Below the pieces are notes generated by a model. It was given only the letters and a program-made list of their open reading frames with translations. It was not told the origin of the DNA and did not search any database. DNA of 49,185 nucleotides from an uncultured Mycoplasmatota bacterium (GTDB lineage: Bacteria; Bacillota_I; Bacilli_A; RF39; UBA660), in contig CAMLWC010000005.1 of NCBI GenBank assembly GCA_946488855.1, positions 1 to 49,185 on the forward strand, given 5' to 3'. This document shows, one piece after another, positions 32,699 through 38,562 of the stretch. Each line of letters opens with the position of its first letter. Position 1 is the stretch's first letter. Made by a program: the position numbers and the translations under genes.

Positions 32699-33742
32699 TT
32701 AATTATATTTTTTTAATATTTTATTTTTATTAAAACTCCAATTAATTGTTTCTCCTTCACTTATTTTATTATTATTGTTAATTAATAATGTTATATCCAT
32801 ATTATCTAAATTATTACATTCATTATAATTTAAAGAAACTATATAACCTACAGGCTTGTCTTTATTGAAATTAGATGTCGAAGGAACACCAATATATAAT
32901 TGATTAATATCATCATGAGAATTATTACATAAAAATCCATTATGTAAATGGCCCGAAATTAAAACATCAAAACTATAATCTTTAAAATAACTTTTTTTTA
33001 TTTCATCAATACTTAATATTTTTTTATCTGGTAAAATCAAACTATAATAAAATTTATGGCTAAAATGAAATGAAGTATTAGAAAATTTTGCTTGCCAATA
33101 TTTTCTTGGGATAACATAAAAATTACTAACATATCTTGTAGTTTGTCTTAATGCGTAATCATAAGATAAAGCACTATCATAAAATAAAGTATTATTTTTT
33201 TTATCGTGATTTCCAATTAGAGCAAATGTCTTTATTTCATTAGGATAATTTTTTTCAAAAGATTCAAATGGACATAATATTTTTTTTGAACTGTCTATAC
33301 ATTTTCCTGAAAAAACATCCCCTAAATGAAAGCATACCTCTACACCTTGTCGTTTAGCAAAAGTATATATATTTTGTAATAATTCAAAATTTTCTAAGTT
33401 TGGATTTCCGATATGAGTATCTGATATTAATAAAAATTTTTTATTTTTATTATCATCAACTTCAAAAGAATAATAATGTCTGCTAAAAGACGAATCGTGG
33501 TAATATTGATCTTCAATATACTTATAAATAGATTCTTTATTCCAATAATCATCACGAACAATTTTACCATAACCAAAATCCGCTAGCAAAATGTTGACAG
33601 CTAAATTTATTTCTTTCAAATCATAACAATAGCCATTTAAATCTAAAATTTCTTTTATTTGACTAATAGTTAATTGGCAATATTTCTGAAATAATTCTTC
33701 TATTTCAGGAACAAGATTATATATTTTATTGTCATAATTCAT
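32699..33742 (-). CDS. Calcineurin-like metallophosphoesterase with an extra N-terminal region
   Basis: LLISDTHIGN…VCFHLGDVFSG…ALIGNHDKK…DVLISGHLHNGF. Confidence 0.85.
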   Translation of the reverse strand: MNYDNKIYNLVPEIEELFQKYCQLTISQIKEILDLNGYCYDLKEINLAVNILLADFGYGKIVRDDYWNKESIYKYIEDQYYHDSSFSRHYYSFEVDDNKNKKFLLISDTHIGNPNLENFELLQNIYTFAKRQGVEVCFHLGDVFSGKCIDSSKKILCPFESFEKNYPNEIKTFALIGNHDKKNNTLFYDSALSYDYALRQTTRYVSNFYVIPRKYWQAKFSNTSFHFSHKFYYSLILPDKKILSIDEIKKSYFKDYSFDVLISGHLHNGFLCNNSHDDINQLYIGVPSTSNFNKDKPVGYIVSLNYNECNNLDNMDITLLINNNNKISEGETINWSFNKNKILKKYN

Positions 33743-33910
33743 AAATCAAGCCCCCTTTTGAGGGACTATTATATCATAATTTTAAAAAAATTAAAATTTG
33801 ATTATGCAATAATAAATTTATTTAATATTTTACAAGTCTTCTTAACTAACAATATCATAGAATATGTATTATTTGAAATATGTATTTACGCATCTTCATT
33901 ATTTTTAAAA

Positions 33911-34036: not shown

Positions 34037-34807
34037 TTATTTTAATTTTAAAATTTTTTCTATAATTTCATCCTTAACGTCACAAGTATCCAAATTTTCG
34101 TCTATTAAAGTACGTTTTAACTCTTCATAATCATAAATAGAAGAAAGTTCTTCATGAATCCCTGGTATTGATTTTTTCATACAACAATCAAAACCAGAAG
34201 GAAGATAATAAGCTTGAAATCTATTTTCTAGTATTTCCTTAGGTGTATAATGATAATTATTTTCAAAATTTTTATTCAAAATTAATACATCAAAAAGTCC
34301 ATTAACATCTCTATACCAGGAAATTGCAGCAAGATAGTGAGACATTAGTTGACCACAATCATCTAAATAATTTTCATCCATTCCGTTTTTAATACCCAAT
34401 TCATATAATTTCAATAATTCTTCAGTTTTATAATCTATTCCTACCAATTTTGATGTTAATAAACAATATTGAAAATAATTATAATTCAAATTTCCGTACC
34501 GGCCCATATTAGGATGTATTATTTTAAAAATTTCTTCTAGTAATTTATACCTTTTTTCAAAAGGAACTGAAGTAACCCCACAAGCTAAATGTTGAATATA
34601 ATGTCCTTGATCATCAGGTTTATAAAGAGAATCTTCACGAAACCATCTGCGTAAAGTTTGAATATTTATTTCATCTACTGTATGAACATTTATATAATTT
34701 CTAAGATTAAATTTATTCATTTCAAATTGATAACATTCTAATTTTTTTTCTTTATATGTAGAACTATCTTCTATTCCCAAACTTTTCTTCCATATGTCTT
34801 CTGACAT
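34037..34807 (-). CDS. Uncharacterised protein, third gene of the AAA+ operon
   Basis: 256-aa ORF overlapping the upstream gene by ~37 nt; no family recognised. Confidence 0.7.
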   Translation of the reverse strand: MSEDIWKKSLGIEDSSTYKEKKLECYQFEMNKFNLRNYINVHTVDEINIQTLRRWFREDSLYKPDDQGHYIQHLACGVTSVPFEKRYKLLEEIFKIIHPNMGRYGNLNYNYFQYCLLTSKLVGIDYKTEELLKLYELGIKNGMDENYLDDCGQLMSHYLAAISWYRDVNGLFDVLILNKNFENNYHYTPKEILENRFQAYYLPSGFDCCMKKSIPGIHEELSSIYDYEELKRTLIDENLDTCDVKDEIIEKILKLK

Positions 34808-35736
34808 TTTTTATCATCCTCACCTTCTAAATAATTTAAATTATATTTTATATTAATATAATTCATAAAATTATCAAAATCTTGATTTAAATTTTCCCCA
34901 TAAATTCCCATTTCACTAGGTGTAGATATATAAATAGTATTTTTCATTTGTTTTATCTCCTCGTCATTCTTTTTATAAGGATAACCATACCCAACACTCC
35001 AATTATTATTACAATTTGGGATGATTTCTATTGCCCTAAAAATTAGTCGCCTTAAAAATGATGGATGAACTAGTGGAAAGTAACTCAACTTAATATTTAA
35101 TTTTTCTTTATCTCTTTTTATTGGAACAATTATTTCAATCATTTCATCTTCACAAACTGCTGTACTACTAAATTCTAAAATGCAATCAATTCCTAATCTT
35201 TCTAAATAAGTTATCAAACTTAAAATACATACTCCTCTATTTATAACAGCGTCTATTTCCGTAAAAGCTGAATAAGATATTTCAACATTAATTTTAATCG
35301 CTTTTTTAACCGTTTCGTTTATTTTCGTTTTAATATTTTTTGGATTACCACATAAAAACTTTGCCACATTAGGAACATACCCAACACAACTATATTGATT
35401 TTGTAATCTTTCGATTTGACTAAATTTCAAATTCAAAATATTTAATTTTGAAATAAACTTATCATATCCATTATCCCAACCAAAGCGACATAAATTCCAT
35501 GCTTCTTCAAAAGATTCTGTGCCACTAAATGAACAATCATTCATTTTACTGCTAGGACAAGAAAAAACTTCGTAATTAATTGGCATAGTAACAATAGCTT
35601 TTAAAAATGTATCTAAATTATAATAATTATATCTAAATATTTTATATTCACTTTTGTCATGATGATATCCCAAATCTATTTTTATTCCATTATTTGATAT
35701 TTCTTCACCTAATGTTACATTGTTTTCTAATACCAT
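34771..35736 (-). CDS. Uncharacterised protein resembling phage DUF7192-type proteins
   Basis: SFSGTESFEEAWNLCRFGWDNGYDKF and CVGYVPNVAKFLCGNPKNI, then INRGVCILSLITYLERLGIDCILEF; overlaps the AAA+ gene by 10 nt. Confidence 0.6.
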   Translation of the reverse strand: MVLENNVTLGEEISNNGIKIDLGYHHDKSEYKIFRYNYYNLDTFLKAIVTMPINYEVFSCPSSKMNDCSFSGTESFEEAWNLCRFGWDNGYDKFISKLNILNLKFSQIERLQNQYSCVGYVPNVAKFLCGNPKNIKTKINETVKKAIKINVEISYSAFTEIDAVINRGVCILSLITYLERLGIDCILEFSSTAVCEDEMIEIIVPIKRDKEKLNIKLSYFPLVHPSFLRRLIFRAIEIIPNCNNNWSVGYGYPYKKNDEEIKQMKNTIYISTPSEMGIYGENLNQDFDNFMNYINIKYNLNYLEGEDDKKCQKTYGRKVWE

Positions 35737-37445
35737 CTATACCCACCTTCATTATAATTCATTTTTTTATCTAAACCATATTTTTTAGAAGCATAATTTA
35801 CAAATTGCATTGAATAATCATCTTCGGTTTTTATTCTCGAACAAATTATATTTAAATCATTTTTATCAAGTCCTTGAATAATAGTCCAATCGAAAATATC
35901 TTCTAAATCAAAACAATCCATATCCAATAAATCACTAGCATTTTTTATATTTCTTGTCGATATTACGTGTCTTATTGTATTGCTTTGAATTATATCACGA
36001 ATTTGCCAATACAAATTCAAAATTTCTTCATGATTGATAATATTTCTTTCTAAATCTTTATCATAATCAATAACAATTGGTAAAAATCTATTTAAAGTAG
36101 CTCCATCTAGAGCTTGTCTTCCAGAATAAATCATATCTGCACCCGTTCCAAATGTATTTGCAGCAGCTATTAAATGAAAATCATTATGTGCTTGATAAAA
36201 ATTACCATCAGGAAAAGCCATATAGTGATTATATCCTGTACCAATTGAAGCATTGATTGCTAATAAAGCTGAAGGATTAGAATTATCAATTTCGTCAATA
36301 AAAATAATTCCACCATTTGTAAAAGCTTTAAAAAATTGTGTTTGTACATATCTTCCATTAGCATCGACAAAACCCATTATTTTATATTCATCTGTAACAT
36401 CATTGCAATAATAAAATTGTAATCCTAATGCTTTTGCAACCTGTTCAATTATAACATTTTTCCCACTACCGGCTGGTCCTTTTAAAAGAACTGGTTTTTT
36501 AGTAGAAACTAATTTTAAAATTTTTTCGAAATCTTTATGAAATATATCTTTTGTAGAAAATTGTTTTTTTATTGCTTCAATATTAATATTTACAATTCTA
36601 CATGGATTTTTATTAATTAATATTTTTGTAGATTCCTCTATTACTTGTTTTAAAATGTCAGTTTTTTCTTGCATATAAATTTTATTTAAATCATTAATAT
36701 AAGCTATAAATTCTTTTTTAATTTCTTGACTTTTAATAGCTAAATCATCGTTTAAATTCTTTTTTAAATTTTCTAGCATAGATTTTGTATCACTACAGTC
36801 TTTAATAATTTTATTTAATTCAATTAATTCTTCTTTTATTTTTGAATATATAGAGTTTAATTCTACTTTTTTACCACTTATACTTTTTTCTAGTATATCA
36901 TCAATTGATTTTTGAATTTCATTAATTATATCATTAGAAATTTCTTCAGCCTTATTTTGATAATTTTCCATTTTTTTAAACAATTCTTCTAATTGTTTTT
37001 GTTGTTCAAATATTTTTTCTTCTTTTTCATCATTATCAATTAAATATTGCTGAATTAATTGATTCATTTTTTTATTTTTTTCATCTATTATTGTTGGATT
37101 ATATTCTAACTGTTTTTTTATTTCTGTTACTTCTTGCAACATTTGAAATAACGAAAATTCATTTCCAACAATCGGCATTACTTTTACATGATTTGGAATG
37201 TCAATAATTGTTGTTTTATCTAAATTTACAAAAATAATTTTAATATTTTCCCAATTAAAAGCATTTTTTTGAACAACCAGAATGTTGCTCGGAATATAAA
37301 CATACTGTAACTTTTCCCAATCTAAAAATGTGTTGCTTGAAATTTCTGTAATTGGATTATCCCTAGTTCCAGATGGAATAATGCAGCAAATTTCATTTTT
37401 TACATCATCTATTACTGGTAAAAACATTTGTCTTTCAAGTATCAA
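35727..37445 (-). CDS. MoxR/CobS-like AAA+ ATPase with BspA-like N-terminus and long coiled coil
   Basis: Walker A GPAGSGKN, Walker B IIFIDEID, sensor-1 region HLIAAANTFGTGAD, DGATLNRF. N-terminus ISSNTFLDWEKLQYVYIPSNILVVQKNAF resembles LRR_5; residues ~105-290 are helical/charged. Confidence 0.85.
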   Translation of the reverse strand: MILERQMFLPVIDDVKNEICCIIPSGTRDNPITEISSNTFLDWEKLQYVYIPSNILVVQKNAFNWENIKIIFVNLDKTTIIDIPNHVKVMPIVGNEFSLFQMLQEVTEIKKQLEYNPTIIDEKNKKMNQLIQQYLIDNDEKEEKIFEQQKQLEELFKKMENYQNKAEEISNDIINEIQKSIDDILEKSISGKKVELNSIYSKIKEELIELNKIIKDCSDTKSMLENLKKNLNDDLAIKSQEIKKEFIAYINDLNKIYMQEKTDILKQVIEESTKILINKNPCRIVNINIEAIKKQFSTKDIFHKDFEKILKLVSTKKPVLLKGPAGSGKNVIIEQVAKALGLQFYYCNDVTDEYKIMGFVDANGRYVQTQFFKAFTNGGIIFIDEIDNSNPSALLAINASIGTGYNHYMAFPDGNFYQAHNDFHLIAAANTFGTGADMIYSGRQALDGATLNRFLPIVIDYDKDLERNIINHEEILNLYWQIRDIIQSNTIRHVISTRNIKNASDLLDMDCFDLEDIFDWTIIQGLDKNDLNIICSRIKTEDDYSMQFVNYASKKYGLDKKMNYNEGGYRWY

Positions 37446-37586
37446 ATAATCACCCCCTAAACATCAAAATCAAACAATAAATAAACATAATTTTATAAAA
37501 TCTTTCATTAACATTTTCTATATATTTTTAACTGTTTTATATTATAATTTTTATTCATTGAAAATAACTTATTTTTTCCTTTCGTG

Positions 37587-37677: not shown

Positions 37678-38562
37678 ATGAATGTTAATTTAGAATTGTA
37701 CAAAATATTTTTAAGTGTTGCCAAAAATGGTAACATAACAAAAGCAGCTAATGAATTATTAATTAGCCAACCAGGTGTAAGTAAATCAATTAAAAATTTA
37801 GAAAATCAATTAAATTGTACTTTATTTATTAGAACAAAAACTGGTGTCCATTTAACTAAAGAAGGAAAATTATTTTATGAAAAATTAACTAATGCAATGG
37901 AGATAATTGATAGTGCTGAGAAATCATTAATGGAAATGATTAATTTAGATAGCGGATATATAAGTATTGGTATAAGTAACACATTAACAAAAAATTTTTT
38001 GTTAGAATATTTAGAATATTTTCATAAATTATATCCTAAAATTAAAATTAAAATTTATACTAATCCAACTCCTGAATTAATAGTTAAAGCGCGAAATGAC
38101 ATAATAGATTTTATTATTCTAAACCTTCCTTACAACACCCCTAAAGATTTTAATAAAAAAAATTTAAAATCTATTCAGGATTGTTTTGTTGCTAATTCCA
38201 ACTATGAACAGTTAAAAAATAAAACTATTCCCTTAAAACAATTAAATGAATATCCATTAATTTTATTATCGAAAGGTTCAAATACTAGAAAATTTTTAGA
38301 TGATTTTTGTTCTAATTTAAATATTACCTTAACTCCCAATATGGAAGTTGCTAGTTATTCGTTAGTTCATCATTTTGCAAAAATAGGGTTAGGAATAGGT
38401 TTTGTTATTAAAGATTTTGTCAAAGAAGAATTAAAAAATAATCAAATATTTGAAATAAATACTATTCCTAAAATTAAAAAACGATATATTGGATTAATTT
38501 ATTTAAAAGATAAAACATTAAGTAGTAGTGCAAAAAAATTTTTACAATTATTAGAAAATTAA
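37678..38562 (+). CDS. LysR-family transcriptional regulator
   Basis: ELYKIFLSVAKNGNITKAANELLISQPGVSKSIKNLENQLNCTLFIRTKTGVHLTKEG. Confidence 0.95.
   Translation: MNVNLELYKIFLSVAKNGNITKAANELLISQPGVSKSIKNLENQLNCTLFIRTKTGVHLTKEGKLFYEKLTNAMEIIDSAEKSLMEMINLDSGYISIGISNTLTKNFLLEYLEYFHKLYPKIKIKIYTNPTPELIVKARNDIIDFIILNLPYNTPKDFNKKNLKSIQDCFVANSNYEQLKNKTIPLKQLNEYPLILLSKGSNTRKFLDDFCSNLNITLTPNMEVASYSLVHHFAKIGLGIGFVIKDFVKEELKNNQIFEINTIPKIKKRYIGLIYLKDKTLSSSAKKFLQLLEN

Follow-up and report, generated by a model that had tools for sequence, protein, structure and literature searches.

Do the three overlapping genes at positions 34,037 to 37,445 of the window, the 49,185-nt stretch of DNA from an uncultured Mycoplasmatota bacterium that was analyzed, form a single system, and what would such a system do? 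An earlier note, made from the sequence alone, had read them as a coiled-coil MoxR-type ATPase (gene A), a phage-like DUF7192 protein (gene B), and an orphan protein (gene C), and had proposed a chromosomal, regulated remodelling machine or a defence or domesticated-phage module with another protein in place of the usual VWA partner. The host genome comprises 1.23 Mb, of which the window covers 49 kb, and is 71% complete, so that absences from it are provisional.

Operon layout and insertion site

The features of the locus are as follows.

37678-38562, plus strand: LysR regulator gene, divergent from A
37451-37457, minus strand: SD-like sequence GGGGGTG, 5' of A
35727-37445, minus strand: gene A, 572 amino acids, TTG start; BspA-LRR, probable coiled coil, and CobS-NorQ-type AAA+ ATPase
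35742-35749, minus strand: SD-like sequence AAGGTGGG, 5' of B and within A
34771-35736, minus strand: gene B, 321 amino acids; DUF7192, most likely a cryptic VWA-type partner
34818-34828, minus strand: SD-like sequence AGAAGGTGAGG, 5' of C and within B
34037-34807, minus strand: gene C, 256 amino acids; predicted ankyrin-repeat-like protein
33749-33767, minus strand: terminator-like hairpin, 3' of C, closing the A-B-C operon
32699-33742, minus strand: gene D, metallophosphoesterase, a separate unit sharing the accessory insert

The three minus-strand open reading frames were found exactly as previously described, with overlaps of 10 nt between A and B and 37 nt between B and C, and a purine-rich SD-like sequence precedes every start. 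Terminator-like sites numbered four in the scanned region compared to 0.4 in shuffles, and one of these hairpins separates C from D.

Genes D, C, B, and A and the divergent LysR gene make up a five-gene insert, flanked on one side by secE/nusG and on the other by a putative DUF4956-like and VTC-like gene pair. In the congeners G003, G012, and G014, secE adjoins the DUF4956 gene directly and the site is empty, while other congeners carry different genes at this position, with a LysR remnant in G005. The insert is thus accessory, and the genes held there by congeners suggest that the site may be an insertion hotspot. The occupants in three congener loci (L246, L247, and L248) include prepilin-like proteins. 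Gene D, present in 5 of the 7 type-1 genomes defined below, was rejected as a core component because 7 genomes that lack type 1 have it too and because it lies beyond the terminator-like hairpin. The description of the system as regulated drew its sole support from the LysR gene, whose position varies among loci, and this gene was therefore rejected as a conserved regulator.

Gene A encodes a CobS/NorQ-type AAA+ ATPase with a leucine-rich head

The product of gene A consists of three parts.

37161-37445, minus strand: residues 1-95, BspA-type (LRR_5) leucine-rich N-terminal module, which marks type 1
36576-37148, minus strand: residues about 100-290, probable coiled coil
35814-36551, minus strand: residues 299-544, AAA+ core with Walker A GPAGSGKN, Walker B DE, sensor-1 Asn, Arg finger, and sensor-2 Arg

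All three parts had been anticipated; the LRR and AAA+ readings were confirmed and the coiled coil was supported. Pfam LRR_5 matched 10/10 relatives (the window copy at E 5.8e-5, slightly short of the gathering score), and a profile of the N-terminus matched crystal structures of BspA-type LRR proteins with a best E of 6e-19. The following region is probably a coiled coil, judging from its charge, its depletion in proline and glycine, and its hydrophobic periodicity: 54-56% of the residues are charged or polar (DEKRNQ), only 2-3 are P/G, and the period is 3.56-3.6 (about 3.56 over residues 100-200 and weaker over 200-290). The CobS/MoxR-like module matched AAA_5 in Pfam (E 6e-14) and the phage family phrog_249 (E 4e-53), and its solved relatives in profile matches were midasin, CobS, CbbQ, and NorQ, with midasin the best.

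The residues expected of MoxR-clade ATPases (Walker A and B, sensor 1, Arg finger, and sensor 2) are present in A, Asn-330 being atypical. Walker B, sensor 1, the Arg finger, and sensor 2 were near-invariant by column conservation across 92 A-B pairs, and the region in which a helix-2 insert and pre-sensor-2 insert would lie aligned with CobS, NorQ, and CbbQ in the sequence profile. In the window, the Walker A motif (36456-36479) has Asn where the Mg-binding Thr or Ser is expected, a substitution shared by 31 of 59 copies on chromosomal contigs and 4 of 33 phage copies. In this lineage the ATPase could be less active as a result.

The most likely identity of gene B: a divergent VWA protein

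Both motifs previously read in gene B, F-x-G-T-x-S-F-x-E-A and GYVPNVxxFLxGNP, are present, and its identity as DUF7192 was confirmed (PF23822, E 9e-28; phrog_1909, E 2e-35). The papers searched for DUF7192 contained no mention of it. An AlphaFold2 model built from 68 window/contig homologues reached a mean pLDDT of 85.7, and the following core was delimited.

34843-35301, minus strand: residues 146-298 of B, predicted VWA-like core (AlphaFold model, Foldseek, degenerate MIDAS columns)

The predicted core comprises a strand (146-152), a helix (161-180), strands (184-207), a helix region containing HPSFLRR (215-237), a strand (267-270), and a helix (283-298). Among the 50 PDB matches listed by Foldseek, four had a probability >0.9 (0.98-1.00), and all four were NorQ-NorD complexes whose matched chain G we read as NorD from titles and lengths; their E-values were 5e-4 to 7e-3 and their TM-scores low (0.26-0.34). 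Against viral models, 12 DUF7192-type matches came first, followed by named ones that were mostly CobT or VWFA. Alignment of the B profile with the NorD/CobT VWA by hhalign scored 27.7, compared to 7-16 for 20 column-shuffled decoys, at a probability of only 9% (P 0.0036), and spanned strand 1 through the helix that follows strand 3, with the motifs in the expected register. A sequence search of B against the PDB returned nothing useful. Together, the predicted model, the Foldseek matches, and the hhalign register are consistent with an alpha/beta Rossmannoid fold in VWA order. The MIDAS signature DxSxS-T-D is degenerate: the first position is Asn in 44/68 homologues and Asp in 4/68, the Thr position is mostly Leu or Phe, and the second Asp is unconserved, while one phage copy retains DxSxS.

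A search of the 71% complete host genome for VWA_CoxE and VWA_2 genes found none, which leaves B as the only VWA candidate seen. Given the low TM-scores and the 9% hhalign probability, the assignment draws on several converging moderate signals, according to which B most likely represents a VWA partner that has diverged rather than a replacement for one. The idea that the usual VWA partner had been replaced is thus probably wrong, and replacement by an unrelated protein was rejected in view of the NorD and CobT/VWFA fold matches and the hhalign register.

Gene C encodes a predicted ankyrin-like protein

A VWA or MIDAS fold had also been suggested as worth seeking in the 256-amino-acid protein C, whose model instead matched ankyrin structures. 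Residues about 30-195 of the model are ankyrin-like and the last quarter is of low confidence; essentially throughout the 50 PDB matches listed, the titles named ankyrin or DARPin-type folds. A 14-member profile of C matched ankyrin chains in the PDB weakly (E 0.01-0.1) and stayed below the Pfam cut-off for ankyrin, the best match being Ank_4 (E 0.027) in 2/14 members. The ankyrin fold predicted for C is provisional because the model pLDDT is 68. The earlier statement that C matches nothing held for families, none being matched in Pfam, PHROG, and PADLOC scans, but not for the predicted fold. Pfam gave no match of C to VMAP, iSTAND, FtsH, or beta-propeller, and a search of the phage collection with C yielded nothing useful.

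A and B are a near-obligate pair with lineage-specific companions

Gene B lies directly downstream of A, in the same order, in 122/126 A-type genes among the gathered loci, mostly with gaps of -10 to +13 nt; as most of these loci were collected via B, the figure describes linkage from B's side. From A's side, a search of 291 family genomes found one clear A homologue away from a contig end without B (in G237). A and B are a near-obligate pair in gut Bacilli, Clostridia, and many phages. DUF7192 was detected in 25/291 family genomes and, within a 392-genome phylum sample, in one genome besides the window's own, and the homologous loci belong to uncultured Bacilli and Clostridia of gut type, Ca. 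Caccenecus and Ca. Coprovivens among them. A scan of genome contigs with a single window protein as the query gave nothing useful. The locus in G237 (L200), where several long LRR-like proteins come in succession after the A-like ATPase, is possibly another variant of the A-B system.

The chromosomal loci differ in the head of A, and the head types and neighbour genes co-vary. Type 1, to which the window belongs, has an LRR-headed A followed by B and C, with C after B in the same gene order in 10/10 loci. Type 2 (13 loci) has a different A head and B, without C. Type 3 has a long A head and a further protein encoded upstream, often with a TelA-family gene that matched PF05816 in 7/8 members. 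An operon of TelA, this 380-450-amino-acid protein, A, and B was seen in L015, L077, L079, L083, L086, L087, L090, L093, and relatives; searches of Pfam and the PDB with the 380-450-amino-acid protein found nothing convincing. In L148, a type-3 unit directly follows a type-2 pair in tandem, and two tandem DUF7192 genes occur in L023/L104, L147, and L164.

Strong C matches were confined to exactly the 7/291 family genomes with an LRR-type A (co-occurrence 7/7, hypergeometric p 3e-14 with shared ancestry ignored), and B and C overlap or are closely spaced in 11 loci with C. Co-occurrence of all three genes, which the earlier note proposed as a check, holds almost throughout for A and B, with C limited, among the 291 family genomes, to those with an LRR-headed A. 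Most A-B loci lack C, as would be the case if three unrelated genes merely overlapped here by coincidence, but the A-B adjacency, the joint occurrence of C and A, and the spacing of B and C contradict this reading, whose chances we regard as minute. In L074, L083 (G258), and L133, A or B is split or interrupted by stops and fragmented C genes occur, which suggests that the system is dispensable and decays.

Phage copies and the origin of the chromosomal pair

Both A and B are found in Staphylococcus, Listeria, Enterococcus, Acinetobacter, and Mycobacterium phages and in many IMG/VR phages; Mycobacterium phage LeBron (L010) has two DUF7192 genes, gp120 and gp127. A search of the plasmid collection with B gave nothing useful. 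The phage family matched by A, phrog_249, is labelled 'porphyrin biosynthesis', and with CobS among the nearest solved relatives of A this could point to a cobalt chelatase. However, neither CobN nor BchH was detected in the 71% complete host genome, B lacks the MIDAS of CobT, and the partner of cyanophage CobS is a true CobT, not DUF7192. We therefore rejected the chelatase reading as extremely improbable and regard the label as unsafe for ATPases paired with DUF7192. Phage CobST clusters have been described in cyanophages and haloarchaeal viruses (PMC8651126); they resemble the A-B pair in placing a CobS-like ATPase near a partner gene, but the phages of the five genera examined here carry DUF7192 instead of CobT.

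The earlier description of the locus as chromosomal is right. In a midpoint-rooted tree, the chromosomal pairs grouped on branches of their own apart from the phage pairs. Four loci in small-gene-rich contexts fell with the phages and look like prophages. The wide occurrence of the pair in phages, together with the proposed involvement of MoxR-vWA pairs in virion assembly (PMC7824862), would fit a host that has retained a phage remodeller of morphogenesis or takeover with no role in defence. We consider such domestication rather unlikely in view of the separate branches and of chromosomal heads and accessory genes that differ from the phage versions; moreover, no phage genes were recognized beside the window copy, for which a recent prophage origin is not supported. 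At some point, the A-B pair has probably passed between phages and hosts.

A proposed MoxR-type remodelling machine

Based on these results, the three genes probably make up an accessory operon that encodes a protein-remodelling machine of the MoxR type, in which A would supply the ring, B the VWA co-chaperone, and C with the LRR head the targeting. In the NorQD system, a VWA partner on the AAA+ ring is twisted by ATP-driven steps according to a finger-in-pore model (PMC13036017), and by analogy A and B are expected to work together as a remodelling motor. By homology with NorQD, CbbQO, and midasin, we infer complex formation and ATP-driven remodelling: A would assemble into an AAA+ ring typical of its family, B would dock on it as NorD does on NorQ, and ATP hydrolysis would move B so that a target protein is prised open or refolded. 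Because the metal site of B is degenerate, the target is probably gripped not by a classical Mg-MIDAS contact but through a different surface of B, perhaps near the invariant HPSFLRR region. The BspA-LRR head and the ankyrin-like C may act as targeting or adaptor modules; their joint variation suggests that they choose the target, lineages with a different head lacking C and one having TelA and the accompanying protein instead.

The A-B-C operon appears to be a previously undescribed variant of the MoxR-VWA remodelling systems. Like NorQ-NorD, CbbQ-CbbO, and CobS-CobT, A-B places an AAA+ gene of the same group beside a gene for a partner with a VWA-type fold, predicted in the case of B, and the motifs of B and NorD share one register in hhalign. 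In contrast to NorD (629 amino acids in the protein compared), B is much shorter at 321 amino acids, is missing most of the MIDAS ligands, and carries an N-terminal half specific to DUF7192, while A bears an N-terminal LRR and coil and the pair has no metalloenzyme neighbour. Midasin (Rea1), which among solved proteins is closest in sequence to the AAA core of A, has an AAA ring that works with a MIDAS domain, but it is a eukaryotic protein that combines several AAA modules in a single chain and serves in ribosome assembly. Ter/TelA stress systems are touched by the A-B lineage downstream of a TelA-family gene, whereas the lineage of the window copy has no adjacent TelA.

A parallel to a conflict function lies in the MoxR-vWA ternary systems, which combine an ATPase, a VWA protein, and a variable third protein, and some of whose VWA domains also lack the MIDAS aspartates (PMC7159879). 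If A-B likewise sensed a phage protein through its LRR and ankyrin modules and triggered arrest, the patchy, accessory distribution with empty sites, the modular A heads, and the presence in one lineage of TelA, a Ter-system component (PMC7824862), would be accounted for. However, the third proteins of the ternary systems are VMAP, iSTAND, FtsH, or beta-propeller proteins rather than ankyrin-like ones, and the bacterium that carries the window copy lives in the gut and has a small genome. Scans of A, B, and C revealed no effector domain (nuclease, TIR, protease, or pore); PADLOC gave only weak coil and P-loop matches for the three; the flanks examined by PADLOC and Pfam scans hold housekeeping or unannotated genes; and phages themselves commonly carry the pair. 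The defence role raised in the earlier note thus found no positive support, and we consider it unlikely.

The proposed remodelling machine gives DUF7192 a testable identity. It also suggests that a MoxR-VWA machine can function even where the metal site is degraded. Hundreds of phage pairs annotated as 'porphyrin biosynthesis' or 'ATPase' plus 'hypothetical protein' may be read as MoxR/VWA-type remodellers. More tentatively, and with the odds somewhat against it, DUF7192 could represent an unrecognized class of metal-independent VWA co-chaperones in phages and gut Bacilli/Clostridia that, with swappable LRR, ankyrin, or TelA modules, would constitute a new family of host stress or conflict machines. 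The short phage form, the LRR and ankyrin form, and the TelA form provide a natural series for learning how such machines change their targets.
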